Source: Thalassospira lucentensis
GTDB lineage: Bacteria > Pseudomonadota > Alphaproteobacteria > Rhodospirillales > Thalassospiraceae
Assembly (NCBI RefSeq): GCF_011806425.1
Contig: NZ_JAATOV010000003.1
Location: forward strand, 558,001 to 622,000
Reading direction: 5' to 3'
Length of the DNA: 64,000 bases
Shown: positions 20,482 through 36,562 of the stretch, in pieces
How the letters are laid out: every line of letters begins with the position of its first letter
Position numbering within the stretch: the stretch's first letter is position 1
Made by a program: the position numbers and the translations under genes
Notes under the pieces: model-generated
The model's database searches: none
Seen by the model: only the letters and a program-made list of their open reading frames with translations
What the model was told of the DNA's origin: nothing

Positions 20482-21339
20482 ATGACGTTAATGCCGTTAT
20501 CACGCCGAATGCGTCGCTGGAAATTCGGTCTGAAAACCCTGTTTGGTCGATCACCTGCGGGCTATTTCATCCCGTATCGTTATGCCGATGAAACCGCCAA
20601 GGCCGTCGGGAAGCCAACCTATCCTGCGATTGAACGCATGATGGAACAGGCAGCCCCAACCATGAAGGCGTGGCTGACCAAGGCGGAAAAATATCAGGAT
20701 GTCTTTGAAACCTTAAACGATGCCGAGCCGCCCGAACCGCGCTGGCAACAAGCATGGTTTCCGCGTCTTGACGGCATGATGGCCTATGTCATGACCCGCG
20801 AATTTCGCCCCAAACGGATTGTTGAAATCGGGTCAGGTCATTCCACCCGGTTTTATCACCGCGCCATTCGCGATGGGGAACTTGAAACCGCATTTCACGC
20901 GATTGATCCGGCCCCGCGTGCCGATATTGCCAAACTGCCGATTACGGTTGATCGCACCATCGTTCAAAAAGCCGACCCGACCATTTTCGACACCCTTGGC
21001 GGTGCGGATATCCTGTCGATTGATTCCAGCCACATCCTGATGCCCGGCACCGATGTTGACCTGCTGTTTTCATCGATCATTCCGACCCTGCCAAGTGGGA
21101 TCATCATTCACATCCACGACATCACCCTGCCCGACGATTATCCGGCGGAATGGCATTGGCGCGGATATAATGAGCAACAAGGTGTGGCATCACTTTTGGC
21201 CGGGAATGGTTTTGAAATCCTGTGGTCGAGTGCATACGCCACCACCCGCCTAAACGACTTGGTTGCCGCGTCGCCTGCCAACAGCATTCACTTGCCGGAC
21301 GGCGCGATTGAAACCAGTTTGTGGCTGCATAAGAAATAA
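20482..21339 (+). CDS. Putative class I SAM-dependent methyltransferase
   Basis: A 285-residue protein with a Rossmann-like methyltransferase core. Motif I is IVEIGSGHSTRFYHRAI (about 114-130). An acidic strand end, FHAIDPAPR, follows, and the later segment ADILSIDSSHILMPGTD resembles the Methyltransf_24 family. No signal peptide is seen; the first 30 residues are basic. CGGGAG precedes the ATG. It lies 51 bases after the MFS gene in the same direction. The substrate is unknown. Confidence 0.75.
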   Translation: MTLMPLSRRMRRWKFGLKTLFGRSPAGYFIPYRYADETAKAVGKPTYPAIERMMEQAAPTMKAWLTKAEKYQDVFETLNDAEPPEPRWQQAWFPRLDGMMAYVMTREFRPKRIVEIGSGHSTRFYHRAIRDGELETAFHAIDPAPRADIAKLPITVDRTIVQKADPTIFDTLGGADILSIDSSHILMPGTDVDLLFSSIIPTLPSGIIIHIHDITLPDDYPAEWHWRGYNEQQGVASLLAGNGFEILWSSAYATTRLNDLVAASPANSIHLPDGAIETSLWLHKK

Positions 21340-21370
21340 GTCACTGAAAACGAATAATGACACGCATTAT

Positions 21371-21889
21371 TCAATTTTCATGAAAACCAGCGCTGTGGCG
21401 ATAAACCAAGTCTGATGGATCAGGACGGGCGGCATTAACATCCAATGTCGCCCCAAGTCTGTTCGCAAGTTTGATTGACCGTGTATTGCCATTCGCGATG
21501 TAGCTTACCAGTGTTTTTAGCCCGCGAACCTCAAATGCCCATCTGCGCATCGCAACAGCAGCTTCATAGGCAATCCCGCGTCCTTCGGCCTCTGGGAACA
21601 GCAACCATCCAAGTTCATGCTCGGGAAATAGAGGTCCGCGATTGATACCGACCTGACCGACGCATGTGCCGGTCAGTTTTTCATCAATCATCAGGGCACC
21701 GTTGCCCAACATGCCCCACTGGGCCACGTCACTGCAAAACATCCCCCATGCGCCCGCAAGATCATAGGGACCGCCCATGTGCACCGAACGTTCTGACAGC
21801 ATCAGTTCCTGATATGCGGGCCAATCGCCCATCGTCATGGCCCGCAAAACAAGGCGGTCCGTTTCAAGATGTGGAATATCGTTCGTCAT
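21371..21889 (-). CDS. GNAT family N-acetyltransferase (RimJ/RimL-like)
   Basis: A 172-residue acetyltransferase of the Acetyltransf_3 branch: HLETDRLVLRAMTMGDWPAY at the N-terminus, ELGWLLFPEAEGRGIAYEAA as the acetyl-CoA motif A, and YIANGNTRSIKLANRLGA in motif B (quoted in part). It starts 8 bases after the stop of the last permease gene, so it is probably the final gene of the long minus-strand operon. Substrates may be proteins, small amines or sugars. Its position is compatible with modification of the operon's product, but nothing in the protein proves it. Confidence 0.85.
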   Translation of the reverse strand: MTNDIPHLETDRLVLRAMTMGDWPAYQELMLSERSVHMGGPYDLAGAWGMFCSDVAQWGMLGNGALMIDEKLTGTCVGQVGINRGPLFPEHELGWLLFPEAEGRGIAYEAAVAMRRWAFEVRGLKTLVSYIANGNTRSIKLANRLGATLDVNAARPDPSDLVYRHSAGFHEN

Positions 21890-21897
21890 CGCCGCAT

Positions 21898-23067
21898 TTA
21901 GTTTTTGTATGGGTCGGCAGCATCGCGCAGACCATCCCCCAAGAAGTTAAACGCCAGCACAACAATCACCACCGGCACCACCGGCAACATTAGCCACGGA
22001 TAGACTGCGACAGCGTTGATGTTTTGCGCATCATTAAGCAACACACCCCAGCTTGTCACCGGCGCACGCAGACCAAGCCCGAGGAAACTGAGCGCGGTTT
22101 CGCCCAAGATCATATTGGGGATCGAAAGCGTGACCGACGCGATCAAGTGGCTGGCAAAGTTTGGCAGCAAATGACGGGCAACAATCCGTTTGGGCGACGC
22201 CCCCATCAAGCGTGCTGCAAGCGCATAGTCTTCTTCACGCAACGCCAACAGTTTGGAACGCACTGCACGCGCAAGACCGGTCCAGTCGATCAGACCAAGA
22301 ATGATCGTAATCCCGAAATAAATCAGGATGGGGCTCCAGGTTACAGGCAAGGCGGCCGAAAGCGCCATCCATAGCGGGATTTCAGGCAAGGAGCGGATTA
22401 CCTCGATCACGCGCTGGACGGTAGCATCGACCCAGCCACCATAATAGCCCGCTGCCCCGCCAATGACGATGCCAAGGAAGAAACTGACCGTAATGCCGAC
22501 AAGGCCAATGGTCAGCGAGACGCGAGCGCCATAAACGATCCGCGAAAACATGTCGCGGCCAAGGCGATCCGTCCCCAACAGAAACAGGGTTCCGTCTTTG
22601 GCCGGGCAGACAAAATGAAAATCAGCTTCAATCAGGCCCCAGAATTCATATTCATCGCCCGAGCAAAAGAACCGCAACGGATTAACCCGGTCCGGATTTG
22701 GCACGTAAACCGGTTTAAGCGTTTCCATATCGACCGAAAAATCGGTGCCATAGGTAAACGGCCCGACAAATTCACCATCATCAAACAAATGAATGGATTG
22801 CGGCGGATGATGGATAAAGTTCGAATTACGCGTTTCCTGCGCATAGGGCGCGATGAATTCAACAATAAAGACCGAGGCATACATCACTGCCAAAATGATC
22901 AGCGACACATAGGCCAAGCGATGGCGTTTCAAACGCCACCACGTCAAACGCCATTGCGATGCCAGATAGTATTTTTCCTGCTCTGGCGTTAGGGCTTCGC
23001 GGTCATAGGGATCAAAGGGAGCTTGATCGACAAAATGCGCGTTGCGCTTTTCTTCTTCGCGGCTCAT
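21898..23067 (-). CDS. ABC transporter permease, OppC/YejE-type
   Basis: A 389-residue inner-membrane permease of the peptide/opine/nickel family. An N-terminal hydrophobic helix follows a 45-residue cytoplasmic region, and a periplasmic domain of more than 90 residues comes next. The BPD_transp core includes the EAA-like loop ARLMGASPKRIVARHLLPN and FLGLGLRAPVTSWGVLL. It partners the OppB-type permease, whose stop overlaps its start by 4 bases. The C-terminus ends LGDGLRDAADPYKN, typical of the family. The solute is unknown. Confidence 0.88.
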   Translation of the reverse strand: MSREEEKRNAHFVDQAPFDPYDREALTPEQEKYYLASQWRLTWWRLKRHRLAYVSLIILAVMYASVFIVEFIAPYAQETRNSNFIHHPPQSIHLFDDGEFVGPFTYGTDFSVDMETLKPVYVPNPDRVNPLRFFCSGDEYEFWGLIEADFHFVCPAKDGTLFLLGTDRLGRDMFSRIVYGARVSLTIGLVGITVSFFLGIVIGGAAGYYGGWVDATVQRVIEVIRSLPEIPLWMALSAALPVTWSPILIYFGITIILGLIDWTGLARAVRSKLLALREEDYALAARLMGASPKRIVARHLLPNFASHLIASVTLSIPNMILGETALSFLGLGLRAPVTSWGVLLNDAQNINAVAVYPWLMLPVVPVVIVVLAFNFLGDGLRDAADPYKN

Positions 23068-24062
23068 TGGCTGATCCCCCCTTGCAATCGAATGCGCGGA
23101 TCAAGCCAAGCCAGCAACACATCAGACACAAACATGCCGACAACTGTCAAAAGTGCCAAGAACATCAGGAACGACCCCGCAAGGTACATGTCCTGACTTT
23201 GCAGCGCGCTTAGCAGCATCGGCCCGGTTGTTGGCAAAGACATCACAACGGATACCAAAACAGACCCGGACACCACTTGCGGCAGGATATTGCCGATATC
23301 GGAAATAAACGGGTTCAGCGCCATACGCAGCGGATATTTAAACAACACCTTAAGCGGGGCTAGTCCCTTGGCGTGGGCGGTCACGACATATTGCTTGCCA
23401 AGTTCATCGAGAAGGTTGGCGCGCAAACGCCGGATCATTGCCGCGGTTCCAGATGTGCCAATGACCAAAACCGGTGCCCAGAGATGTTCGATGATGGAGG
23501 TGATTTTGTCGAACGACCAACCCTGATTGATGAATTCCGGGTCCATCAGACCGCCGATCGAGGTGCCAAACACAACATTGGCGTAATAGAGCAAAATCAG
23601 GGCGAACAGGAAGTTCGGCATCGCAAGGCCCAGGAAGCCAAGCAGTGTAAAGCCGTAATCGCCCCAGCTATATTGCCGTGTGGCGGAATAAATCCCGATG
23701 GGGAAACTGACGATATAGATGAACAAAATGGTGCTGAAATTCAGAACCAGCGACAGCCATAACCGGTCGCCGACAACTTCTGACACCGGCAGGTTATATT
23801 CAAACGAGAAGCCAAGATCGCCGTGCAAGAGGCCCCAAGCCCATTCGAAATATTGCACATATAACGGCTGATCAAGGCCGTATTGATGCTTTAAAAATTC
23901 GATTTTTGCCGGATCAACCGCCTCGCCCTGAGCTTGAAGTTCGTTCAAATAGGTGCTCAGAAAATCCCCAGGGGGAAGCTGAATAATCACGAATACCAGC
24001 ACACTGATCATAAACAGTGTTGGTATCATTACAAAAAGCCGTCTAGCCAAATAGGTCAGCAT
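23064..24062 (-). CDS. ABC transporter permease, OppB/YejB-type
   Basis: A 332-residue permease with the N-terminal MLTYLARRLFVMIPTLF helix and about six transmembrane segments. The EAA-like loop reads YVVTAHAKGLAPLKVLFKYP. It follows the binding-protein gene after 78 bases, the largest gap in this operon, and overlaps the OppC-type gene. It belongs to the same importer as the flanking genes. Confidence 0.88.
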   Translation of the reverse strand: MLTYLARRLFVMIPTLFMISVLVFVIIQLPPGDFLSTYLNELQAQGEAVDPAKIEFLKHQYGLDQPLYVQYFEWAWGLLHGDLGFSFEYNLPVSEVVGDRLWLSLVLNFSTILFIYIVSFPIGIYSATRQYSWGDYGFTLLGFLGLAMPNFLFALILLYYANVVFGTSIGGLMDPEFINQGWSFDKITSIIEHLWAPVLVIGTSGTAAMIRRLRANLLDELGKQYVVTAHAKGLAPLKVLFKYPLRMALNPFISDIGNILPQVVSGSVLVSVVMSLPTTGPMLLSALQSQDMYLAGSFLMFLALLTVVGMFVSDVLLAWLDPRIRLQGGISQ

Positions 24063-24140
24063 CGGCGCTTACGCTCCCCCCAAACGTTTTCGTCCCAATC
24101 CCACATTAGGCTTAAACGCAGAATAATCAAATTGGTCTGC

Positions 24141-26072
24141 TTATCGATCCCACCAGAATGTATCCGGGCGATAAATGCCAAAGAATGCGCCCGGTTCCCA
24201 ACTATGGATCCCCTTTTCAGGCACGTTACGCATGTCTTTATCGACGACAACGGGTTGCGGCACATTGCCAATCAACCCAATCGAAAACATGTTTTCCGAA
24301 TTGATATCCAGAATTTTCTGCCACGCCTCAACACGTGCGGCATCGTTACCGGTTTGCCATTTCTGATACAAATCCATCAGTTCCTTGGCGGCGGGCATAT
24401 CGGGTGCTTCGCCTGCTTCGCCGTCGGTCTGATAGTATTGGCCCCATTTGGGCCATTGAAGCGTATCTTGCTGAACCGGGACAAATTCGGACGGCACCGA
24501 ATTTGGCGTTGCCAAACCGTTATCCACGCCATTGAAAATCGACATGATGGTTTCGCCGGTATAGGCACGATTGCGCAGAACTTCGCGCTGCAAGCCTTTG
24601 ACAAACATCTTTATCCCGACCTTGCGCCAGCTGTCGCGAACCAGTTCAAGCATGTCGTCATGTTCGGGATTTTCGCCGGTGGTTTCGACAATGATTTCCA
24701 TTGGGCGACCGTCTGGCAAAAGTCGGATGCCATCACTGTTGCGTTCGTTTAGCCCCATTTCGTCCAAAAGGGCATTGGCACGTTCAAGATCGAACTGGAT
24801 ATAGTTTTCGCGGTATTCCGGCTTAAACAAAGGGCTTTTGGGCAAAACGGTATTGTTGGTCGGCTGCGCCAAACCAAAGAACATTACGCGGTTAATTTCC
24901 GTGCGATTAATCGCCAACGACAAAGCCCGGCGGAAACGCACATCGCGCAAGACATCGCGCCATACCGGATCAGAACATGTCAGATTGGGATAAAGGGCGG
25001 CATAGGCCCCTGCCCCAACATCCCAAAGACGGACGTTATAGTTCTGTTGTGGTTCTGACTGTTTGAGGAAGGTGTAATCCTTTAACGACAGAATGCGACT
25101 TTGCAGGTCGACTTCGCCTGCCCCGACTTTTGCCGGCACCAATTTGGAATTGGCAATGTTAAAGATCATCTTGTCCATATACGGAAGCTGGTTTCCTTCC
25201 GGGTCGACGCGATGATAATAGGGATTGCGCACAAACACGAACCGATCAGATGGTTCTTCGGTCGTAATCAGCCACGGTTCCAATGACGGGCGTTCGATGT
25301 TTGACAGCTTATAAGGGCGATCCAAATCGGTATGTAAAACCGCCCAGCTGCGCAAACCGCGTTCCTTAACCATCGCATCAAGCTCAGCCGGATCGCGGTA
25401 TTTGGCGTGGAATTGTTTCAGATAATGCGCCGGGCGATAAATAAACGGTGGCCGGGTTGCGGCAAGCTCGGTCAGGAAGAATGGATTGGGCTTAGACCAG
25501 CTATAGCGAACGGTATATTCGTCGATAATTTCAAAAGTCGCCGGTTCATCGCCAACAAACAGAAAACGCGGCGGACCAACAGGAAACAGTTCATCATTAT
25601 TGACGATGTCTTCCCAATAATACCGGAAATCCTCGGCAGTAAATGGCGTTCCGTCGGACCATTTGTGGCCTTTGCGGATATGAAGGGTAAACTCGTTCCC
25701 CGCGTCATTGGCATCAAGGCTTTCGAGAATATCGGGCTTTAGATCGAGATTTTCGTCATAGCCAATCAAACGCGCATAGCCATAGACAACCGCCATACGG
25801 ATGTCTTTGGACCGGCCCATGATCGTAACAAACTGACCGCCATATTTGCCGATGGTTTTGTTTTCGCCCGCAAAATCGATCACCTTGGGGTGTTCGGGCA
25901 ACCGTTCAAGCATCGGAGGCAAAGTGCCATTGGCAATCGCATTTTCAAAATATGGTACTTCGGCCTGTGCAAAGCTTGGTAGCATTGCCACGCCGAGTAA
26001 ACCGCCAGCAAAAACACCCCCTGCGATCGCGTGACGTAAAACAGAACCTTTGTCATGTGACCAGCGGGTCAT
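24141..26072 (-). CDS. Solute-binding protein, family 5 (peptide/opine type), large
   Basis: A 643-residue periplasmic binding protein, longer than ordinary OppA (about 540). The signal peptide (about 1-37) ends at AQA. Family-5 motifs are present: FTLHIRKGHKWSDGTPFTAEDF and VRFRRALSLAINRTEINRVM (quoted in part). The ATG at 26072 overlaps the ATPase stop by 4 bases and has GGAG upstream; an in-frame extension to 26180 lies inside the ATPase gene and is rejected. Family-5 proteins bind peptides, opines, nickel complexes or oligosaccharides. Here the upstream glycan genes make a saccharide or glycosylated ligand worth considering. Confidence 0.88.
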   Translation of the reverse strand: MTRWSHDKGSVLRHAIAGGVFAGGLLGVAMLPSFAQAEVPYFENAIANGTLPPMLERLPEHPKVIDFAGENKTIGKYGGQFVTIMGRSKDIRMAVVYGYARLIGYDENLDLKPDILESLDANDAGNEFTLHIRKGHKWSDGTPFTAEDFRYYWEDIVNNDELFPVGPPRFLFVGDEPATFEIIDEYTVRYSWSKPNPFFLTELAATRPPFIYRPAHYLKQFHAKYRDPAELDAMVKERGLRSWAVLHTDLDRPYKLSNIERPSLEPWLITTEEPSDRFVFVRNPYYHRVDPEGNQLPYMDKMIFNIANSKLVPAKVGAGEVDLQSRILSLKDYTFLKQSEPQQNYNVRLWDVGAGAYAALYPNLTCSDPVWRDVLRDVRFRRALSLAINRTEINRVMFFGLAQPTNNTVLPKSPLFKPEYRENYIQFDLERANALLDEMGLNERNSDGIRLLPDGRPMEIIVETTGENPEHDDMLELVRDSWRKVGIKMFVKGLQREVLRNRAYTGETIMSIFNGVDNGLATPNSVPSEFVPVQQDTLQWPKWGQYYQTDGEAGEAPDMPAAKELMDLYQKWQTGNDAARVEAWQKILDINSENMFSIGLIGNVPQPVVVDKDMRNVPEKGIHSWEPGAFFGIYRPDTFWWDR

Positions 26073-27997
26073 ATTGCTATCTCCGTAAAATCGGCACGCT
26101 CGGCCCGGACGAAATGATCGTCGGCCAATTGCATCATTTTGGGGTCGCTGTCGCGGTTGATGGTAAAGGGCGCCGGCCATCGCGCCGGATCAGAAGCCTT
26201 GCCATCGACAATCTTGTTGAAATCAAGCGGATGGTCCAGATCGGCAAACGGCACTGCATTCAGTAACGCCTGCGTGTATGGATGCATCGGATTACGAAAC
26301 AGCTTTTCGCGCGGTGCGGTTTCAACAATGCGCCCCGCACACATCACCGCAATCCGATCCGCGATGTAATCAACCACCGCAAGGTTGTGCGAGATAAACA
26401 GATAAGTCAAATTAAGATCACGCTGTAAATCCTTTAAAAGATTAAGAATTTGCGCCTGAACCGATACATCAAGTGCCGATGTTGGTTCATCAAAGATCAG
26501 AAGATCGGGCTTAAGACTGAGCGCGCGGGCAATGCCGATACGTTGGCGTTGGCCACCGGAAAAACTGTGCGGATAACGGCTTAGGTAGCGCGGATCAAGC
26601 CCGACAACTTCCATGAGTTCCAGCACCATTTTTTTGCGATAGGCACTGTCACCCACCCCGTGAATAATCATGGGTTCGGCAACGATGTCCTGAACCGTCA
26701 TGCGCGGGTTAAGCGAGCCGAACGGGTCCTGAAATACAAACTGGATGCGTTTGCGATAAGGGTTGAGCTTATCTTCATCAAGCCCGACAAGTTCGGTCAT
26801 TTGACCGCTTTCACCGCGAAACAGAATTGATCCGTCATCAGGCGCCATAGCGCGCATGATCAGCTTTGACAGCGTTGTCTTGCCACAACCACTTTCGCCC
26901 ACCAGCCCCACGCATTCACCGCGGTTCACCGTTAGCGACACGTCCGCCACCGCCGGGATCAATTGCTTTTTGGCTTTTAACCAGTGGCCTTTGCGGGTGG
27001 TGAAACTTTTGCTGAGATGCCGAACAGAAAGGACTGGTTCGCTTGCCATGGTTGGATGCAAGGCCAAAGACGGCGGAACGTCATTTTGTTCGCGGGTATC
27101 TTCGCCATCTCCATCAAGCGCAAGAAGACTTCCGGTCTTTGGTTTGATTTCACGAAGCGGCTTTAACCGTTCATCCGGCCCCATATCAAAATGCGGCACA
27201 GCGGCCAACAAAGACCGAGTGTAGCCATGTCCGGGATTAATAAAGACGTCTTCGGTCTTGCCACTTTCAACAACACGGCCATCGTAAATCACCACCATCC
27301 GGTCGGCCATATTTGCCACCACCCCCAAATCATGGGTGATGAGCAGTACCGACATTTCAAGTTCGCTTTGCACTTCCTTGATCAGACGCAGTATTTGCGC
27401 CTGGATGGTGACATCAAGGGCAGTTGTTGGTTCATCGGCCACCAGCAATGCCGGACGGCACACCATGGCCATGGCAATCATGGCACGTTGGCGCAAGCCG
27501 CCAGACAGTTCGAAGGGATATGTTTTAAGCGCGTGCTTTGGGTCGCCAAAGCCAACAAGGGTCAGCATTTCCTTGGCAAGTTCGCGGGCTTCACGATGGT
27601 CGACATTGCGGTGAAGTCGGACGGCCTCGCATATCTGATCGCCAATGGTATGTAGCGGTGAGAGGGAGCTCATCGGCTCCTGAAAGATCATGGAGATACG
27701 GCCACCGCGGATGGCGCGCATCTGCGCCCCTGCCCGGTCAAGCATCGCGAGATCAACACGCGTTCCGGGCTTGTCCGGGTCGGCAAAGATGATGGATCCG
27801 TTGGTGATCTGCGCGACTTTGGGCAAAAGGCCCATAATCGCCTGCGAGATCGTACTTTTGCCCGATCCAGATTCCCCAACAAGCGCGACTGTTTCTTGCG
27901 CACCGATCCGAAAAGTCACATTTTCGACTGCCTTAACCCGCATATGGGGCAAAACAAATTCGACCTTCAGATCCTTAATGCGCAAAATGTCAGTCAT
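26069..27997 (-). CDS. ABC transporter ATP-binding protein, duplicated (YejF/GsiA-type)
   Basis: A 642-residue ATPase with two complete ABC modules. Module one has Walker A GESGSGKST (about residue 40), signature LSGGLRQR and Walker B LLVADEPTTALD. Module two has Walker A GESGCGKTT (about 365), signature FSGGQRQR and Walker B LLIFDEPTSALD. Each ends in the oligopeptide-transport C-terminal domain. Both sites look intact. The start overlaps the stop of the 217-residue membrane protein by 4 bases, which ties the importer to the glycan genes. Confidence 0.92.
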   Translation of the reverse strand: MTDILRIKDLKVEFVLPHMRVKAVENVTFRIGAQETVALVGESGSGKSTISQAIMGLLPKVAQITNGSIIFADPDKPGTRVDLAMLDRAGAQMRAIRGGRISMIFQEPMSSLSPLHTIGDQICEAVRLHRNVDHREARELAKEMLTLVGFGDPKHALKTYPFELSGGLRQRAMIAMAMVCRPALLVADEPTTALDVTIQAQILRLIKEVQSELEMSVLLITHDLGVVANMADRMVVIYDGRVVESGKTEDVFINPGHGYTRSLLAAVPHFDMGPDERLKPLREIKPKTGSLLALDGDGEDTREQNDVPPSLALHPTMASEPVLSVRHLSKSFTTRKGHWLKAKKQLIPAVADVSLTVNRGECVGLVGESGCGKTTLSKLIMRAMAPDDGSILFRGESGQMTELVGLDEDKLNPYRKRIQFVFQDPFGSLNPRMTVQDIVAEPMIIHGVGDSAYRKKMVLELMEVVGLDPRYLSRYPHSFSGGQRQRIGIARALSLKPDLLIFDEPTSALDVSVQAQILNLLKDLQRDLNLTYLFISHNLAVVDYIADRIAVMCAGRIVETAPREKLFRNPMHPYTQALLNAVPFADLDHPLDFNKIVDGKASDPARWPAPFTINRDSDPKMMQLADDHFVRAERADFTEIAI

Positions 27998-28647
27998 ATT
28001 TGTTCGGCACCACCATGTTTTCTTTCTGATGCTGCCGCTTTGACAAGGGTTTCGGCCTCATCGATGCGCATCAGATTTGTACGGGTCACGTCGTCTACAA
28101 GAATTTGGTTATCTTTGGCCCAATCACGAGAAATATCAAGAAGTTCGTCAAAACCAACCAATGAAGATTCTGCAACAATTTTGGCGCCGTGCGCCTGTAT
28201 TGTCAGCTCGAACCAACCTTTGTTGCCATCGCGCTTGGTACTAAAGTAACGCAAGCGGAACTTAGAAAGTTCCGGCCATGCAAATGCTGTCCCGCCATAA
28301 ATGCTTGAAAGCCGAATGCCATATTCGGAAATATAGATCTTTTGCTGAAAGCGCAGCATGGTGCGCGCAAAGTAGAAAATAAACAGCAACGCCAAACCAG
28401 CCGCCGTCCACTGAATGATCGAAAGCATGTCAGGGATCACAGCCATCACAATGCAAATCAGCAAGCCAACAATCGACTTTGCAAGATCGGGTGCCATTGC
28501 CTTTGTCGGATAGGCCAGCATTTGCACATCGCCCTCAGACACCCCTGCCGGTTTGACCGGATCAGTCGCGCCATCGGCGGCACCGTCTGTGCCATCGATC
28601 TCGTGCGTATCATTCATATCCGGATGTTTATTCGGACTTATTGCCAT
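27994..28647 (-). CDS. Membrane protein of unknown function between glycan and transporter genes
   Basis: A 217-residue protein I do not recognise. An N-terminal hydrophilic, acidic stretch (1-55) is followed by two close hydrophobic segments (about 59-92), then a soluble domain of about 125 residues. That domain (FQQKIYISEYGIRLSS, AFAWPELSKFRLRYFST) looks like a PH-like or bacterial PH/DUF2244-type fold, but that is only an impression. CGGAG precedes the ATG. It overlaps the deacetylase gene by 10 bases and the ATPase gene by 4 bases, so it is firmly embedded in the operon. Confidence 0.7.
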   Translation of the reverse strand: MAISPNKHPDMNDTHEIDGTDGAADGATDPVKPAGVSEGDVQMLAYPTKAMAPDLAKSIVGLLICIVMAVIPDMLSIIQWTAAGLALLFIFYFARTMLRFQQKIYISEYGIRLSSIYGGTAFAWPELSKFRLRYFSTKRDGNKGWFELTIQAHGAKIVAESSLVGFDELLDISRDWAKDNQILVDDVTRTNLMRIDEAETLVKAAASERKHGGAEQI

Positions 28648-29396
28648 GGAAATACTCCGGGAATTCTTAACCAGCTCAGTGCTGAATGTTCCATTGAAAA
28701 AAGATTATCAAGAAATTGCGTCGTCGGTGCGTCATGCACCAAATGATGGGTCAGGATGCCGGTTGGTTCTTGCGGGTCCACGTCACCTTGGCGACGTGCC
28801 GAAAGATGGGCGATCATGGCGCCAAGGGCGGCGTCTTCGCCAACAAAGCCACGTGTTCCGCGCCAATCAATTACATCGACATGGGTGTTGACTTGAAGCA
28901 CGCCTTTATAAGGCTCTGGCTTCTTGCGGGCGTTAAAGGTGCTTAAGCCGCAAATACCGATATTGTGAAGGGCCGCCGCGACGTCATCGGAAATTCGGTT
29001 CCACGGCGGGACAATGACGGGCAAGAAACGATTACCAAACCGCGATGACAAAACCGCAAAGCCCTGCTTTAAATCGGCAATGACCGCGTCAACATCGCGG
29101 ATATCATCAAGTTCCTGCTTTTTACGGCCTTCGGGCATGTTGTTTTGATGGGCCCAGCCATGTTGCAAGACACGGGTATCAATGGTTTCCACCAAGCGTT
29201 CGACAAGATCATCTTGCAATGAGGCCGGAATAACCGCCAAGGCCAACGGGACGTTATAATCCTGTTCAAACCCCAAAAGGGTTTCAAGTTCGGGTGTTAC
29301 CGTAACAGCATCATCATCGCGCCACCACGCCGTCGCAACCCGTCCCTCGGACTGCCACAGATCAAGTTCCGTGCGCAATTGGTCCCAACTGCTCAT
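28638..29396 (-). CDS. Polysaccharide deacetylase-like protein
   Basis: A 252-residue cytoplasmic-looking protein (no signal peptide) with the NodB-like metal-site pattern. An acidic motif WRDDDA (D27-D29) is followed by HGWAHQN (H79, H83), and the late motif TGILTHHLVHD matches the second His site. These enzymes remove acyl groups from amino sugars using a divalent metal. The absence of a secretion signal suggests action on a precursor inside the cell, for instance a lipid- or nucleotide-linked glycan. It overlaps the glycosyltransferase upstream by 4 bases. Confidence 0.8.
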   Translation of the reverse strand: MSSWDQLRTELDLWQSEGRVATAWWRDDDAVTVTPELETLLGFEQDYNVPLALAVIPASLQDDLVERLVETIDTRVLQHGWAHQNNMPEGRKKQELDDIRDVDAVIADLKQGFAVLSSRFGNRFLPVIVPPWNRISDDVAAALHNIGICGLSTFNARKKPEPYKGVLQVNTHVDVIDWRGTRGFVGEDAALGAMIAHLSARRQGDVDPQEPTGILTHHLVHDAPTTQFLDNLFSMEHSALSWLRIPGVFPWQ

Positions 29397-30538
29397 GCCG
29401 TTCCCTTTGCCAATGCTGCGATTAATGACGCTGTTTTCTGCGCGCCGTTAAGGGCAACATTTAACTGTTGCGGCGGTTTGGCGCGATCTATTTGTTTTGC
29501 CAATGATTGCGCAGTCAGCCCATCAAGATCAAGCAAGGAAATAACACCGGCATTTGCCAATATCTCACCACGTTCTTTTTGCTCGCTTTCGCCGCCCTCG
29601 GCGAATGGGACCATGACAGCGGGTGTTTGGGTCGAAAGCACATCCATCAATGTATTGTACCCCGCCTGGGATACAGAAACAGCCGCCTTGGCCATGCGGG
29701 CGCGAAAATCGGGCAAGAAGCGATGCAGCGTAATGCCGGGCGGCATTGTGTTGACCAACGCGTCAAACCGGTCTTGGGGGAAATGCGGGCCGGTGACGAT
29801 GTCCCACGGTACATCTTGGTATTTTTCGGAATGTCCATGCGCAGCAATCGCAAGATCAATCAGCCCTGCCCCAACGGCACCGCCACCGGCCGAAACCAAA
29901 ACGCCGTTTCGGGTCGCACCATGATCTGTGTTTGATGCGACCTTAGGATGCGATGGTGCGACATAACCGGTATAGACGATCAGGTCCTTGATATCATCGG
30001 CATATGGGAAACTGTGATCAAAGCCGAACAGGTTTTGATCCCCGTGAACCAGAACCCGATCAAAATATTCGCGGGCAATATCGCGCATCCATTTTGTTTT
30101 TGCCGGATCGGTTTTGCGCACCAAAAGATCGCGTACGGAACAAACAATTGGCACACTTGCCTGTTTGGCCGCTGTCATTAACGGGATCAGTTCAAACCGA
30201 AAGGCACGCCGACCAAACGGAAACATTTCAATCAGCAGCACCTTTGGCGCTGTTTCCTTGAACGCGGCCAAAAGATCATCTTTGCGACGTTCTTTCCAAT
30301 CGTCATCAACCGGCGTGTCATTGACATCCACAAGGCCGGAAAAATTGCTATCGGCGCTGCGGCAGGCAGGTAATTGCACGACACGGTCAGCGGCGAAATC
30401 AAGGGATGGATCAGGAATGCCGCCACTGGCAACGGTTACGGTCAGCCCCTGATCGCGCATTGCCTGATTAATCAGGGCCATGCGCCGCACATGCCCAATG
30501 CCAAGCAAGTGCTGAACATAGACCATAACGTCGCTCAT
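29393..30538 (-). CDS. MurG-like predicted glycosyltransferase (COG4671 type)
   Basis: A 381-residue protein of GT-B fold. The N-terminal motif MVYVQHLLGIGHVRRM is a glycine-containing loop as in MurG-type enzymes. The C-terminal part contains SQAGYNTLMDVLSTQTPAVMVPF, the usual nucleotide-sugar site. It resembles the protein encoded at 33640-34842, the first gene of the same operon, especially in the GHxRR motif. Donor and acceptor are unknown. Confidence 0.82.
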   Translation of the reverse strand: MSDVMVYVQHLLGIGHVRRMALINQAMRDQGLTVTVASGGIPDPSLDFAADRVVQLPACRSADSNFSGLVDVNDTPVDDDWKERRKDDLLAAFKETAPKVLLIEMFPFGRRAFRFELIPLMTAAKQASVPIVCSVRDLLVRKTDPAKTKWMRDIAREYFDRVLVHGDQNLFGFDHSFPYADDIKDLIVYTGYVAPSHPKVASNTDHGATRNGVLVSAGGGAVGAGLIDLAIAAHGHSEKYQDVPWDIVTGPHFPQDRFDALVNTMPPGITLHRFLPDFRARMAKAAVSVSQAGYNTLMDVLSTQTPAVMVPFAEGGESEQKERGEILANAGVISLLDLDGLTAQSLAKQIDRAKPPQQLNVALNGAQKTASLIAALAKGTA

Positions 30539-31170
30539 AGCCGGTCCTCATCATCAATAACAATCAATGGCACATTCAACGCGACCACCGAAAAACCATC
30601 TGTTTCCGACCAGTCAAAAACATGCAGACATTCCCAATCGAGTTTATCGGGGATTTTGCCCATCATGTCCCAGCCGCGCGCCGCCGCATACACGGCACGA
30701 ATAACGCCCTTATGCGTGATCGCACCGAATGTATCATTCGTGCCGGGGGCCTGATTGGCCGTGTGGCGGGTCAGGAAATCTTGCACGCGGACAAGAACAT
30801 CTTGTGGGCTTTCACCACCATCCGGGCGAAACGCCCAACCCCGGTCTTCGTTTCGCGCCATTTCTGCCCCAAGCTTTGCGCGAAGATCGGGCAGTCTTTC
30901 GCCTTCCCACGTGCCCCAATCCATTTCGATCAAATCAGGTTGGGCGGTGACGGGTGAAATAGACAGCGCATCGGCGGTTTCACGGGTCCGGGTCAGCGGC
31001 GTGCAATACCACGGCACGTCTTGCCAATCGTCGGGCAGCCGTAAGGTGCGATAATGCGCGATGGTATCGGTGCGAAGGGAAATATCAGATCGCCCCTGAA
31101 TACGCTTTTCCGCGTTCCAGTCCGTTACCCCATGGCGCAATAAGGCAAAGCGTATGGTGCTCATGCTCAT
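30535..31170 (-). CDS. Histidine phosphatase family protein
   Basis: A 211-residue phosphatase of the phosphoglycerate-mutase-like superfamily: FALLRHGVTDWNAEKRIQG with phospho-accepting His13, and ITHKGVIRAVYAA with the second catalytic His. GWAFRPDGGESPQD is typical of this branch. The start at 31170 overlaps the upstream glycosyltransferase stop by 4 bases; an extension to 31317 runs inside that gene and is rejected. In this setting it may dephosphorylate a sugar phosphate or phospholipid intermediate, an inference from context only. Confidence 0.85.
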   Translation of the reverse strand: MSMSTIRFALLRHGVTDWNAEKRIQGRSDISLRTDTIAHYRTLRLPDDWQDVPWYCTPLTRTRETADALSISPVTAQPDLIEMDWGTWEGERLPDLRAKLGAEMARNEDRGWAFRPDGGESPQDVLVRVQDFLTRHTANQAPGTNDTFGAITHKGVIRAVYAAARGWDMMGKIPDKLDWECLHVFDWSETDGFSVVALNVPLIVIDDEDRL

Positions 31171-32306
31171 GCTCGCCCTGCCTTTGACTTTGCAACAATC
31201 TGGCGAAGCTCTGCCCCCAGCAGTTCGGATGCAGATGCAATGGTGTGGTCGTGCGCGGCCTTGGTTGCAGCGGCCAGACCAAAGGGACGGAGCATCTGCA
31301 CTTGATCGGTCAGACATTTTGCCAACTGTGCGCCAAACGCGTCTGCATCGCCGACCGGGACAAGCCAGCCCGTTTTCTGATCGGCAACCACGCCGGGCAC
31401 GCCGCCAGTATTTCCGGCCAGCACCGGCAACCCTGCCGCCTGTGCTTCGAGCAATGCCATACCATAGGCTTCATTCACCGCCGGCCAAACAAACAGGTCG
31501 GACACGGCAAGATGATCGCGGGTTTGTTCGGGCCGACACAGACCGGCAAAGCGGAGATTGCGGTCGGTGATGCCTTGTTTTGCAAACAATTTCTCCACCT
31601 CGGCCCTTGCGGGGCCATCGCCAATAATGGTCAGGTGCCAGTTATCGATGTTGCGTTGCGTTAACTGGCCCAAGGCAAGTGCAAGAATTTCAAAGGATTT
31701 TAGCTTATCCCCACCGCGCATCATGGCGGTGGTAACGAGCCTAATACACGCAGGACCGATGTCCGCGCGCGACGTTACCTGCCAATTTTCAACCTCGGTA
31801 AAGGGGGCAAGGTAATGCAGCGCCTTGGCATCGCAGATCGGCCTTAGGCATTCCATATCGGCGCGATTAAGCGAAAAGACCGCATCCGCGTGACGCAGCG
31901 CAATTTCAACTGCCTGATGGCTTTGTTGCCACGGACCGTTTGCCCGCTTTGGCGCGAAGGATGCTTCGGCAACGACGTAAGGAATATCCAGTGTCTTGGC
32001 GACAATCGGCCCGATCCAATCGGGCGCCTTATAGTACAGATGATAGGTAAACCAGACATCTGGCCGGGGGCGCACACCGGATTGATAAAAACGCAGCAAG
32101 CGCGCGGCCAGTTTTGACCCCAACTCAGCAAGGCGGGCCTGTTGCAGGATATTGCCGTCTGCAACCCGACTGCGCAGGCGTGCGGCAATCTCGACATCCA
32201 TATCAGATGCCGCAAGCGCCTTAATCAGCATCCGCGCCATCAACCGATCGCCGGATGGCACCGGATGATCAGCGGGCTTTAACGGGGCATAGAAGGCAAC
32301 CTTCAC
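31167..32306 (-). CDS. Glycosyltransferase family 4 protein
   Basis: A 379-residue GT-B glycosyltransferase starting with GTG. The C-terminal GT1/GT4 domain is clear: LRFAGLCRPEQTRDHLAVS, then FVWPAVNEAYGMALLEAQAAGLPVLAGNTGGVPGVV with the E-x7-E motif (quoted in part). GGGGG lies before the start. It follows the next glycosyltransferase by 12 bases and overlaps the phosphatase gene. Confidence 0.88.
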   Translation of the reverse strand: MKVAFYAPLKPADHPVPSGDRLMARMLIKALAASDMDVEIAARLRSRVADGNILQQARLAELGSKLAARLLRFYQSGVRPRPDVWFTYHLYYKAPDWIGPIVAKTLDIPYVVAEASFAPKRANGPWQQSHQAVEIALRHADAVFSLNRADMECLRPICDAKALHYLAPFTEVENWQVTSRADIGPACIRLVTTAMMRGGDKLKSFEILALALGQLTQRNIDNWHLTIIGDGPARAEVEKLFAKQGITDRNLRFAGLCRPEQTRDHLAVSDLFVWPAVNEAYGMALLEAQAAGLPVLAGNTGGVPGVVADQKTGWLVPVGDADAFGAQLAKCLTDQVQMLRPFGLAAATKAAHDHTIASASELLGAELRQIVAKSKAGRA

Positions 32307-32318
32307 GGCAGTTGCCCC

Positions 32319-33617
32319 CTACTCTGCTGCTGAGGTTTCTGAGGGTGTTAAGCGCGAAGGTTTGTCGGCAATCGCGTTTTCGTATTCTTTGTCCGAAACG
32401 CCAAAGCGATGTGCCAAGTCCTTCATCCCGCGATAGAATGAGAAATCCCGACGCACAATTACATTGCCCTGACGGCCCATCTCGGCGCGACGTTTTGGAT
32501 CGGTGATCAGGCTTTGTAATGCTGTCGCCAGTGCATCCGGATCACGTTGTTCAACCAGAAGGCCATTCACGCCGTCATCGATAAGCTCCGGGATGGCTGA
32601 AATGGCGGTTGAAACCGCAGCCAAACCGCAAAGCTGTGCTTCCATCAGAACGTTGGGCAACCCGTCACGGTCACCGTCTTTTTGAATTCGGCTGGCCAAG
32701 ACAAACAAATCGGCGGTTTGACAGGCGGCGATGACTTCTTGTTGGTCGCGGGCACCTTGCCATTCACACCGGTCCGATACGCCCAAATCAACTGCGAGCT
32801 TGCGGTATTTATCCGCGCTTCCCCCACCAATATGAACAAATCGCCACGCAAGATCGTTTGGCAGTTTTGCCAAGGCACGCAGCAAATCGTCATAGCCCTT
32901 TTTGCCGACCAAACGGCCGACCGAAAGAATCGTGACAGGCTGGTCCGAGTTGCTGCCATCGCGCATTTCGCGTTCGGGCAATTGTTCGGGGAAGCGTGAA
33001 AAATCAAGCCCGTGATAAAGCAGATGAACCTTTGACGGGTCCTCGGCCAAATCGCGCAAATAGCTGACATTGGCCTGCGTACAGGTGACCAGCCAGTCCA
33101 TATCACGCAGCTTTTCGCGCATATCCCAATCCGCACTGGTATAGATGTCCTTGGCATGTGCAGAACAGGACCATGGCAACCCACGTATGATCGCGCAATA
33201 CCGTGCCACAGAGGCCGGAGTATGGAGGAAATGGGCGTAAATGCGGGTGACATCGTCGGTCAGCTCGGCGGCCATAACAATGGCCTGAACAAACCGTCGG
33301 GCACGGTTTGGTGTGCGATCACGCCGGTAATCCTGCCACCAGATATTTACCGCCCGACGATAGCCGCGCAATTTGCGGACTTTCCACCAACTGCGCAAGA
33401 CACGCATCGGTTCCTGATAGACATATTCTGGAAGATAATCGACATCGCCCGTGATCCGTTTGTGGATCGGATGGCGTTTTTTATCCGTCGGATGGCGCAG
33501 CGACACAATCCGATAGGGAATGTTCGCTTGCTGAATGCCAAGAATTTCCTGCGCAATAAAGGTTTCCGACAATCGCGGATATCCCTTAACCACGATTGCA
33601 AGATTGTCGCGTGTCAT
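32319..33617 (-). CDS. Glycosyltransferase family 4 protein
   Basis: A 432-residue GT-B glycosyltransferase. The N-terminal part begins AIVVKGYPRLSETFIAQEI, a motif common in GT4 enzymes of surface polysaccharide synthesis. The C-terminal domain contains ILSVGRLVGKKGYDDLL, CEWQGARDQQEV and DGLPNVLMEAQLCGLAAVS. The start at 33617 is chosen because the longer frame to 33698 overlaps the upstream gene. It is the second gene of the operon, 22 bases after the first. Confidence 0.88.
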   Translation of the reverse strand: MTRDNLAIVVKGYPRLSETFIAQEILGIQQANIPYRIVSLRHPTDKKRHPIHKRITGDVDYLPEYVYQEPMRVLRSWWKVRKLRGYRRAVNIWWQDYRRDRTPNRARRFVQAIVMAAELTDDVTRIYAHFLHTPASVARYCAIIRGLPWSCSAHAKDIYTSADWDMREKLRDMDWLVTCTQANVSYLRDLAEDPSKVHLLYHGLDFSRFPEQLPEREMRDGSNSDQPVTILSVGRLVGKKGYDDLLRALAKLPNDLAWRFVHIGGGSADKYRKLAVDLGVSDRCEWQGARDQQEVIAACQTADLFVLASRIQKDGDRDGLPNVLMEAQLCGLAAVSTAISAIPELIDDGVNGLLVEQRDPDALATALQSLITDPKRRAEMGRQGNVIVRRDFSFYRGMKDLAHRFGVSDKEYENAIADKPSRLTPSETSAAE

Positions 33618-33639
33618 AACTTTATGTCCCGGCGTTTTC

Positions 33640-34842
33640 TTATTCGGCGGCCATTTGTGGCGGAAGCCAGCGATCAACAAGATCGCCAATCCGATCAAGC
33701 CCGCCCATCAGGTTTGGAACGGTCACATGCGACGGCTTGGCTTGCGAAATTAACCCATGCAGCGCATCGGCCATCTGACGCGGATCACGTCCGTTCTCTT
33801 CGGTCAGCATTTTGACAAGGCCGAGCTTTTCAGCCGCCGACGCACGAACATATTGTTCAAGGCGTGGTACCGTACGCGGTATGATAACGGCCGGTTTATC
33901 AAATGACAGAATTTCACAGAACGTATTGTAGCCGCCCATTGCAATCACGCCGGCGGATTTATCCATCAGCATTTCGACATTGGCGTCAAACGTAATCACC
34001 GACAGCTTGTCGATCTTTTCAGCGCGATCCATAAAGGATTTCTGATCCGCAGGCGGCATAAACGGCCCCAGCACGACAAGCGACGGCACCGCAATGGTCG
34101 GGTCCGTTTCATAGGCGCTGATCACCCAATCAACCATATTGACCCCGTCCCCGCCGCCACCGGTGGTGACAAGGTAATACGGTTCTTCAAGGCCAAGCGC
34201 ACCGTGTTCTGGTGACGGGCGCCGGGTCGCGGTCCGTGGCAAATAGCCGGTATAGGCCATTTTTTCTTCGACACCGGGCGGCAAATCAATGCCAGCAAGC
34301 GGATTACAGATTTCCTGCAAGCCATAGACCCATATTTCGTCATACAGGTCCGCCAAGGCTGGCACGCATTGTTTGCGGTCCCATTCTTCGCGAAGATGAG
34401 CCGGATCATCCATCACATCGCGCAAGCCCATCACAAGACGGGTGCGGCGTTCGCTGAGCATGCGAAGAGTGGATTCAACTTCACCCCGAAGACCAAGTGG
34501 TTCTTTATCAACAATGAAAATGTCGGGATTAAACACATCTGCGGTGTGCTTAATGATCGATTCCCGCATTTCAAGAATCTGATCAACATCGATATTGAGG
34601 TTAAGTGACGTATATTCGCCGTTTGACAGCTTAATCACGCCAGGAATGCGGACAAAGTCGACTCGTGATCGAAATTCAAAACTGCCAATGATCGGTGACC
34701 CCGACAGGATCAGAACTGAAACATCATCACGACGAGACACAAGCGCATGCGCAATGGTTCGGCAACGGCGCAAGTGACCGAGCCCAAAGGTATCATGGCT
34801 ATAAATTAGAACCCGATAGCCGGAGTTCCCTACTACTGACAT
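33640..34842 (-). CDS. MurG-like predicted glycosyltransferase (COG4671 type), first gene of operon
   Basis: A 400-residue protein of GT-B type with N-terminal VLIYSHDTFGLGHLRRCRTIA, VDKEPLGLRGE in the middle, and MGGYNTFCEILSFDKPAVIIP near the C-terminus. It is a paralogue-like relative of the gene at 29393-30538. No signal peptide or clear membrane helix is seen, so it acts at the cytoplasmic face. The ATG is preceded only by a weak site. It opens a run of twelve genes on the minus strand; the promoter should lie within 34843-34990 but was not located. Confidence 0.83.
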   Translation of the reverse strand: MSVVGNSGYRVLIYSHDTFGLGHLRRCRTIAHALVSRRDDVSVLILSGSPIIGSFEFRSRVDFVRIPGVIKLSNGEYTSLNLNIDVDQILEMRESIIKHTADVFNPDIFIVDKEPLGLRGEVESTLRMLSERRTRLVMGLRDVMDDPAHLREEWDRKQCVPALADLYDEIWVYGLQEICNPLAGIDLPPGVEEKMAYTGYLPRTATRRPSPEHGALGLEEPYYLVTTGGGGDGVNMVDWVISAYETDPTIAVPSLVVLGPFMPPADQKSFMDRAEKIDKLSVITFDANVEMLMDKSAGVIAMGGYNTFCEILSFDKPAVIIPRTVPRLEQYVRASAAEKLGLVKMLTEENGRDPRQMADALHGLISQAKPSHVTVPNLMGGLDRIGDLVDRWLPPQMAAE

Positions 34843-34932
34843 ATATTCGTCCGCTAACGCAGTGGCCCACTACACCTATTCAACCATAAACGCATGGTGA
34901 CAGGGTATCTCTGAATTCAAGTATATTTAACC

Positions 34933-34955
34933 AGTACATCCAATTTGGACGTACT
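34933..34955 (-). other. Hairpin between the beta-CASP gene and the glycan operon
   Basis: AGTACATCC and GGACGTACT form a 9-bp stem with one mismatch and a 5-base loop. It lies 36 bases after the beta-CASP gene stop on the minus strand. The following bases (GGTTAAATATAC) are A/T-rich but hold no real T-run, so this is at best a weak terminator. Confidence 0.45.
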
Positions 34956-34990
34956 TTAAAACCCGTAAACTTATAATTGGCTTATTGCTC

Positions 34991-36562
34991 TCATACAGAC
35001 CCGATATCGCGCAAGACTTTTTCAAGCAACGTGCGCCGTTTGGCATCACTTTCAAGAGAGCGCAGCTTTTCCGAAAGTTCGGTAATCGTGCCAGCGTACA
35101 AATTGTGCCAATCATCACGCGACAAGTCTTCGCCTGACAATCTGGGCTGAATTTTCGCCGTTCGCAAGGCCCCGGCACGAAGCTTTACCGTTTCATCAAG
35201 CATGGGCAAGGCGATCTTGTTTTGATCAAGCCCCTCGTCCAACAGCGCTTGTTTAAAGGCAGTTCGCGCCCCTTCTTCTCCATGGGTTAAAAAGATGCGC
35301 TTTGCGACGGGCTGGCGATCACGGGCCCAGCGCAGCAACATTTCCTGATCGGCATGACCGGAATACACATCGAGCGTCCGGATGCGCGCACGGACTTCTA
35401 TTTCCTCGCCGTGAATACGCACACGCTTCGCACCCCGTTGCAAAACACGGCCAAATGACCCTGCGGCCTGAAACCCGACCAGCAACACGGTGCATTCGTC
35501 ACGCCAAAGGTTGTTTTTCAAATGATACCGAATGCGTCCTGCATCACACATCCCACTTGCCGACAGAATAATGGCCCCGCTTTTGACCAAGGCAAGTTGC
35601 TTGCTGGCTTCGACATCCGGGACCATGTGAAACTTCGGATGATCAAGGGCCCGTGCGTCGGCACCTGTTAAATGCTTTGCAAAAACCTCGGTCGCGCGCT
35701 TTGCCAACGGACTATCAATAAACACAGTCGCCTCTGGCAGGTCGCCGTGATTAAACAAATACGCAAGATCGACCATCAATTCCTGCGTTCGAGCAACGGC
35801 GAAACTTGGGATAATCAGGTTTCCACCTGCCTTCAATGCGTCACATACTTCGGCGCGCAACAATGCCCTGCGTTCATCGTCGCTTAAATCGGTGCGATTT
35901 CGGTCGCCATAGGTTGTTTCGACGAACAGATAATCAAGGTCTGCCGGGGCTTCTGGGGCATTGTTAAACACCGCCTCGCCGGTTCCGATATCACCAGAAA
36001 ATAGCATTCGCGTTGGGGTGTCATCATCATTTTGCGCGATTTCAATTTCAATCGATGCCGACCCAAGCAAATGCCCCGCATCCCAAAACCGGGCTTTGAC
36101 GCCGGGAATGATTTCTTTCCAGGCGTGGTAATCGACAACCTTAAACTGATCGAGGGTTCTTTCCGCGTCATGGCGGGTATAGATCGGTGTTACCTGCGGG
36201 CGACCGCGCCGGGCATTGCGACGATTAAGGCGTTCGACTTCTGATTCCTGAATATATCCGGAATCAGGCAACATATATGTCAGAAGGTCGCAGGTAGGCT
36301 CAGTTGCAATGATCGGCCCCTTGAACCCCGCCTTGACCAGTTTGGGCAGTAAACCAGAATGATCAATATGGGCATGGGTTAAAAGGACAGCCTTGATCGA
36401 ACCGACATCAAACGCAAACGGCCCGTAATTAAGTTCTCGGACTGTTTTACTACCCTGAAACATCCCGCAATCGACAAGGATATTGCCCTGATCTGTTTGC
36501 AGGAAATAGCACGATCCGGTCACGCCGCCAGCCGCACCGCAAAAAGTAACCGCTATTGTCAT
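34991..36562 (-). CDS. Beta-CASP family metallo-beta-lactamase-fold nuclease
   Basis: A 523-residue protein with an N-terminal metallo-beta-lactamase domain containing the zinc motif THAHIDHSG, plus DAGHLLGSA and FSGDIG. A beta-CASP insertion follows (PSFAVARTQELM and SASGMCDAGRIRYHL), and a C-terminal RMMBL segment has YSGHADQEMLLRW and FLTHGE. This architecture belongs to the mRNA 3'-end-processing exonuclease-like group of RNA nucleases. The ATG at 36562 has GAGGACGTC upstream. It is a single gene between moeA and the glycan operon; its RNA targets are unknown. Confidence 0.9.
   Translation of the reverse strand: MTIAVTFCGAAGGVTGSCYFLQTDQGNILVDCGMFQGSKTVRELNYGPFAFDVGSIKAVLLTHAHIDHSGLLPKLVKAGFKGPIIATEPTCDLLTYMLPDSGYIQESEVERLNRRNARRGRPQVTPIYTRHDAERTLDQFKVVDYHAWKEIIPGVKARFWDAGHLLGSASIEIEIAQNDDDTPTRMLFSGDIGTGEAVFNNAPEAPADLDYLFVETTYGDRNRTDLSDDERRALLRAEVCDALKAGGNLIIPSFAVARTQELMVDLAYLFNHGDLPEATVFIDSPLAKRATEVFAKHLTGADARALDHPKFHMVPDVEASKQLALVKSGAIILSASGMCDAGRIRYHLKNNLWRDECTVLLVGFQAAGSFGRVLQRGAKRVRIHGEEIEVRARIRTLDVYSGHADQEMLLRWARDRQPVAKRIFLTHGEEGARTAFKQALLDEGLDQNKIALPMLDETVKLRAGALRTAKIQPRLSGEDLSRDDWHNLYAGTITELSEKLRSLESDAKRRTLLEKVLRDIGSV

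Follow-up and report, generated by a model that had tools for sequence, protein, structure and literature searches.

Gene content and layout of the operon

The 64,000-nucleotide stretch of Thalassospira lucentensis DNA studied here (contig NZ_JAATOV010000003.1; hereafter the window) comes from a genome of 4.5 Mb and carries an operon in which glycan-synthesis genes are followed by the genes of an ATP-binding cassette (ABC) importer. All twelve open reading frames (ORFs), g01 to g12 in the direction of transcription, lie on the minus strand from 34842 down to 21371 (Table 1). With the likeliest starts chosen for g02, g04 and g09, the successive junctions are gaps of 22 and 12 bases, overlaps of 4, 4, 4, 10, 4 and 4, a gap of 78, an overlap of 4 and a gap of 8; neighbouring genes overlap by 4 or 10 bases at 7 of the 11 junctions, and the other four are gaps. 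A sequence-only reading of the window had proposed a coupled twelve-gene unit with this strand and junction pattern, and both are borne out once the three starts are moved. The order of domains is likewise as that reading had named it, except that the deacetylase-like protein (g06) and the 217-residue protein (g07) have no Pfam match above cut-off.

The synthesis half (g01-g06) and the import half (g08-g11) meet near 28 kb, with g07 between them, where g06 and g07 overlap by 10 bases and g07 and g08 by 4. A consensus scan placed one promoter-like site close to this point (28206-28178). Over positions 21000-35200 there were 12 promoter-like sites, compared with 12.3 in shuffled sequences (standard deviation 3.4), and 22 terminator-like sites, compared with 18.3 (standard deviation 4.5), so that neither kind was above chance. 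We reject a division into two adjacent operons, which the earlier reading had tied to a promoter and terminator near 28 kb, because these signals are at chance level and the genes around the meeting point overlap.

The two GT28-C-type enzymes, g01 and g05, are 25% identical. Among NCBIfam models, g02 best matches EpsE (140 bits, under the cut-off of 400) and g03 best matches BshA (81.3 bits; cut-off 273.7), with MshA at 61.6 bits (cut-off 462.5). Given that g03 is under both of the latter cut-offs, we do not assign the operon to the mycothiol or bacillithiol pathways. Mycothiol synthesis, too, uses enzymes of the GT4, phosphatase and deacetylase types, and these, together with the best match of g03 (BshA, 81 bits), would suit an operon that makes a soluble osmolyte or redox sugar of this kind, with the neighbouring importer recovering leaked product. 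We consider this highly improbable, since the BshA score is far under its cut-off, and four glycosyltransferases with a co-inherited exporter (see below) better suit a secreted saccharide.

In the g06 family, the motifs RDDDA, HGxxH, PWNR and HH are invariant across 29 aligned sequences, a pattern that would be in keeping with an active NodB-type (carbohydrate esterase 4) deacetylase, although no Pfam model passes its cut-off. The gene is present in 29/29 genomes of the same genus (the window's own included) and in 12/31 other genomes searched from the same order. In two distant genomes, the operon has beside it a further deacetylase-like gene that forms a pair with a GNAT acetyltransferase gene (L071:14417-16038 and L264:2407-4027). 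The predicted structure of g07 combines a two-helix hairpin with a PH-like domain; its fold matches are weak, and the fold comparison yielded no single convincing relative. Its homologues are 21-31% identical to the window's copy (40 aligned). We suspect that g07 may be a membrane scaffold.

Table 1. Genes of the operon, in order of transcription.
Gene	Description	Position	Strand	Pfam match or remark
g01	GT28-C-type glycosyltransferase, 400 residues, first operon gene	33640..34842	-	PF04101
g02	GT4 glycosyltransferase; start moved from TTG 33698 to ATG 33617	32319..33617	-	PF00534
g03	GT4 glycosyltransferase, GTG start	31167..32306	-	PF00534; order conserved
g04	Histidine phosphatase; start moved to ATG 31170, 4-base overlap with g03	30535..31170	-	PF00300
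g05	Second GT28-C-type glycosyltransferase	29393..30538	-	PF04101
g06	Polysaccharide-deacetylase-like protein	28638..29396	-	Invariant motifs
g07	217-residue protein; two-helix hairpin and PH-like domain in model	27994..28647	-	
g08	Fused double ATPase, Opp/Dpp-type importer	26069..27997	-	ABC_tran twice and oligo_HPY
g09	Family-5 solute-binding protein; start moved from 26180 to ATG 26072, 4-base overlap with g08	24141..26072	-	
g10	Importer permease	23064..24062	-	PF00528, PF19300
g11	Importer permease, last core gene	21898..23067	-	PF00528, PF12911
g12	GNAT acetyltransferase	21371..21889	-	PF13302

Conservation and co-inheritance across the class

Genes g01 to g11 are collinear in all 23 loci mapped from the same genus. 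In other genera, L064, L069 and L071 keep all eleven genes in order, and in L067 the importer comes first. Given this conservation of gene order within the genus and beyond, we reject a chance neighbourhood. The acetyltransferase gene g12 is found in only 5 of the 23 genus loci; in two of the 23, the sequence stops no more than about 1 kb past g11. The proposed twelve-gene unit therefore stands for g01-g11, whereas g12 is not a core part, although it is likely co-transcribed with the operon.

Among 289 genomes of the class, g01 has one match each in 92. The 91 neighbourhoods other than the window's own were mapped with 44 query proteins; 16 of them were too short, being cut by contig ends, and the other 75 had at least 13.5 kb of room downstream. 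At least three importer genes accompany g01 in 57 of these 75 loci, the reverse of a situation in which the glycan genes would usually occur without the importer.

Using presence thresholds that differed per marker gene (E values of 1e-30, 1e-120, 1e-70 and 1e-40), we counted g01 in 92, g09 in 89, g05 in 93 and the exporter described below in 95 of the 289 genomes. Parts of the module thus occur in about one third of the sampled genomes, plant symbionts included (any marker in 100, all four in 83). The co-conservation of the two halves, suggested by the sequence-only reading, is evident: 86 of the 92 genomes with g01 also have g09, six have g01 without g09, and three have g09 without g01 (Fisher's test, p = 6e-62, phylogeny not corrected for). 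The two genes lie within 25 kb of each other in 61 of the 86 genomes, more than 700 kb apart on one contig in 4, and on different contigs in 21, some of these cases being contig breaks. In the 25 genomes where they are separated, g05 is within 15 kb of g09 in 13 and of g01 in 11. Overall, g05 is within 15 kb of g09 in 72/87 genomes, as anticipated for a junction that is kept across genera. These observations support the synthesis and import halves as one co-inherited unit.

In a sample of the phylum, 22 of 299 genomes have a match, 20 from the same class (the window's own included) and 2 weaker ones (36% identity) from outside it. Among the best 80 of 581 confirmed loci, from which the named loci are drawn, the closest named relatives are Thalassospira. 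Some named matches are labelled Beta- or Gammaproteobacteria or otherwise; most are metagenome bins, whose labels may be wrong, and the entries for L215 (Comamonadaceae G21597-S1) and L227 (labelled Mycobacterium) have no bin mark. A diverged cluster on an Escherichia plasmid (L266:11998-22176) comprises a GT28 enzyme, two GT4 enzymes, an ABC exporter, two kinase-like proteins, an alginate-export-family protein and a nucleotide-sugar dehydrogenase, and some parts of a Candidatus Manganitrophus plasmid (L265) are similar to it.

An exporter with a predicted cyclic-nucleotide-binding partner

Elsewhere in the window's genome is an exporter and cyclic-nucleotide module that did not figure in the sequence-only reading. 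In relatives, an ABC exporter with ABC_membrane and ABC_tran domains in one chain adjoins the operon. Export by a two-gene ABC-2 system of the Wzm/Wzt type can be set aside, as the co-inherited exporter is of this single-chain kind. In the window's genome, the exporter is a 1103-residue protein that carries a cNMP-binding domain (G000:C5:619940-623248).

Among the 115 exporter loci obtained from 178 loci examined, the cNMP domain is fused to the exporter in 8, encoded by a separate ORF in 97 and missing from the stretch in 10, as judged with a profile built from seven stretches of these same loci. Where the domain is present, it lies at most 500 bases from the exporter match in 102 of 105 loci. 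A phosphate-binding-cassette-like motif, in a pattern devised for this analysis, occurs in 115 of 121 cNMP matches, with the glutamate in 112. From its domain content, the exporter is predicted to have a cyclic-nucleotide-binding partner, and we suspect that a cyclic nucleotide may gate it. In three relatives tested, the exporter is fused to both cNMP-binding and GGDEF domains (L065:6499-10023, L068:5139-8753 and L074:11190-14819), and double second-messenger control of one transporter would be possible in such proteins.

In searches with the exporter of the window's genome, alignments to relatives are usually interrupted from about residue 450 to about residue 540, and just the first part of the ATPase domain is covered by Pfam (e.g., L178:9941-13252). 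An insertion within this domain is therefore likely.

Other genes recur around the exporter. In 185 clustered loci, a small methyltransferase is found in 77, mostly adjoining the exporter; class III cyclases occur in 22 loci and proteins with an MBL fold in 20, each group being identified by Pfam from one representative. In the window's genome, the gene immediately upstream of the exporter encodes an MBL protein that matches the anti-Pycsar Apyc1 family (L178:9023-9850; 100.6 bits, cut-off 50). Apyc1 degrades cyclic nucleotides. We reject a Pycsar-type defence system, as the PADLOC matches to cyclases and effectors correspond to the cyclase and cNMP-binding domains; two weaker PADLOC matches fall on the ATPase part of the exporter.

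The recurrence of class III cyclases and MBL hydrolases at these loci, and the position of g07 with its predicted PH-like domain between the two halves, would also suit an import half that senses or recycles fragments of the wall or of surface glycans. In that case it would tune export by signals sent via the cyclic-nucleotide module and would not serve mass recovery. A sensor alone would not need the complete transporter that is kept, with its double ATPase and two permeases, and we saw no direct link from importer to cyclase; we regard this alternative as quite unlikely.

The imported ligand and a possible saccharide cycle

The importer is of the Opp/Dpp type, with an SBP_bac_5 protein, two BPD_transp_1 permeases and ATPase domains with oligo_HPY. 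The earlier designation as a peptide/opine-type importer is less clear-cut: the nearest solved folds to g09 are the pectin-binding protein SPH1118 of Sphingomonas sp. A1 tied with the Thermotoga OppA 5ipw, and g08 passes the cut-offs of two ATPase models of the staphylopine importer, CntF and CntD, the score being the sum for its two ATPase domains. Against the CntA model, g09 scores 59 bits (cut-off 800).

According to the available parts of one study, SPH1118 binds pectin and not tryptone peptides, and serves pectin chemotaxis and assimilation (PMC9314435), whereas g09 sits in a glycan-synthesis operon. By sequence alignment, the equivalent of the stacking residue Trp594 of SPH1118 is Trp in 38/40 members of the g09 family, and the equivalents of Arg294 and Arg466 are conserved in 40/40 and 37/40. 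The same parts of that study describe the cleft of 5ipw as negatively charged and Trp594 as hardly conserved there (PMC9314435), in contrast to its retention in the g09 family; 5ipw has two of the three ligand residues that are conserved in this family. We suspect that the imported ligand may be a saccharide, and perhaps an acidic one.

The conserved gene set, together with an exporter that is accompanied by a cyclic-nucleotide sensor, suggests that one compound is made, secreted and recovered by the same cells. In this scenario, the operon and the unlinked exporter would constitute a single saccharide cycle, an explanation that we advance tentatively and rate at slightly short of an even chance. 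The four glycosyltransferases g01, g02, g03 and g05 would build the saccharide, and the histidine phosphatase g04 and deacetylase g06 would trim it. The MsbA-type ABC exporter, with or beside its cNMP-binding domain, would release it upon a cyclic-nucleotide signal, and the Opp-type importer g08-g11 would bring it or its fragments back. Synthesis, export and import would then act on the same compound, which may be acidic (uronic). The nucleotide-sugar dehydrogenases encoded in the loci of Rhizobium etli, Sinorhizobium meliloti, Sulfitobacter indolifex and Rhizobium johnstonii are in keeping with such a cycle.

Several observations weigh against it. In the window's genome, the exporter is unlinked to the operon, and both matches to nucleotide-sugar dehydrogenases are found on other contigs. 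In sequence, g09 is closest to 5ipw among solved structures, ahead of SPH1118, and 5ipw is called an oligopeptide binder, without a peptide complex (PMC9314435). The equivalents of Arg294 and Arg466 are also present in 5ipw by alignment and therefore do not single out an acidic sugar, and Asn53, Arg57, Arg438, Asp483, Arg496 and Glu505 of SPH1118 are not conserved in the g09 family. The co-occurrence counts ignore phylogeny, and there is lineage bias in them: a control paralogue of the binding protein occurs in 9/289 genomes, and all nine also have g01 (it is absent from 83 of the 92 g01 genomes). Finally, 18 of the 75 class loci with room have no importer near g01, and the importer could feed on foreign compounds.

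If so, the importer would scavenge plant or algal oligosaccharides, would be co-located with the synthesis genes because both serve surface life, and the imported sugar would differ from the exported one. The role of the nearest solved relative in pectin assimilation, as given in the available parts of PMC9314435, and the loci in which g01 lacks an adjacent importer fit this alternative; the polysaccharide lyase of the S. meliloti locus is compatible with either explanation. We consider it unlikely, as by Pfam none of the twelve genes encodes a glycosidase or lyase, and co-inheritance with a single glycosyltransferase in 86/92 genomes, four of which have more than 700 kb between the two genes, would be unexpected for a nutrient importer. 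Very unlikely, in our estimation, is an importer of peptides or glycopeptides in an operon serving to decorate or recycle a compound with peptide parts, wall material for example; the match to the presumed oligopeptide binder 5ipw speaks for it (PMC9314435, in part).

Returning to the saccharide cycle, the closest plan among known systems is that of the staphylopine (Cnt) metallophore, in which one molecule's synthesis, export and Opp-type import go together. The ATPase g08 passes two Cnt cut-offs, as described above, but Pfam finds no nicotianamine-synthase-like, opine-dehydrogenase or racemase genes among the twelve. The operon could conceivably be a saccharide counterpart of such a system, in which an acidic, partly deacetylated oligosaccharide is exported under cyclic-nucleotide gating and taken up again by the Opp-type importer, alone or loaded with a metal ion. 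Published pointers to a metal are confined to nickel and cobalt phenotypes of Rhizobium tags assigned by counting (PMC6266702; see below). This more specific version is rather improbable; if true, glycan synthesis, second-messenger control and re-uptake would be joined in an ancient alphaproteobacterial module. Cyclic beta-glucan (NdvB, NdvA/ChvA) likewise involves an MsbA-type exporter of an oligosaccharide made in the cytoplasm, and the present module differs from it in its four GT4/GT28-type enzymes, cyclic-nucleotide domain and dedicated importer.

Rhizobial loci bring the module close to published work. The annotated loci on R. etli p42e, S. meliloti pSymB and R. johnstonii 3841 pRL11, and in Sulfitobacter indolifex, hold the importer, glycosyltransferases, exporter and dehydrogenase; the rhizobial ones add cyclases and, encoded separately, a cNMP-binding (or Crp-annotated) protein. 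The R. johnstonii locus has no g04 or g07 match. The S. meliloti locus lies within 822-853 kb of pSymB and carries a polysaccharide lyase (PF14099). It is distinct from the msbA2 operon (SMb21188-21191) near 938 kb, which likewise combines glycosyltransferases with an MsbA-type exporter of an unknown polysaccharide and with which the available parts of PMC3687685 and PMC12239276 describe no family-5 importer. A polyuronate with lyase turnover, glucuronan, is made by S. meliloti M5N1CS and Peteryoungia, and as of 2023 the genes for its biosynthesis were described as unknown (PMC10180729, in the portion available). The S. meliloti locus, with both a dehydrogenase and a PF14099 lyase, is one candidate only.

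We found no description of the module as a system in the literature searched, outside of which lie most subscription journals; its parts are of known kinds, and their assembly is undescribed in the literature found. If the saccharide cycle holds, bacteria would recover their own exported glycan under cyclic-nucleotide control, unlike the usual picture of surface polysaccharides. The rhizobial copies make this directly testable, as they point to genes that may make an undescribed surface saccharide, glucuronan being one candidate product.

These copies may also explain published attachment and metal-tolerance mutants. Tags were assigned to the R. johnstonii locus by counting, with repA taken as pRL110001 and with the sigma factor pRL110007 (PMC1557990) and the efflux permease pRL110043 (PMC11406972) as anchors. 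This gives pRL110056 for the dehydrogenase, pRL110066 for a cyclase and pRL110071 for the MBL protein, counts that past pRL110043 may be off by 1-2 genes. In the accessible part of one report, pRL110056 is important for root colonization (PMC11103875). In that of another, the 14 transposon loci for nickel and cobalt tolerance in strain UPM1137, named by 3841 tags, include pRL110066 and pRL110071 (PMC6266702). CyaK (SMb20776), a published cyclase of S. meliloti (PMC5498481), could be the cyclase at the present locus. DUF3095 proteins are encoded within two of the rhizobial loci, at L262:3314-4525 and L270:23257-24483.

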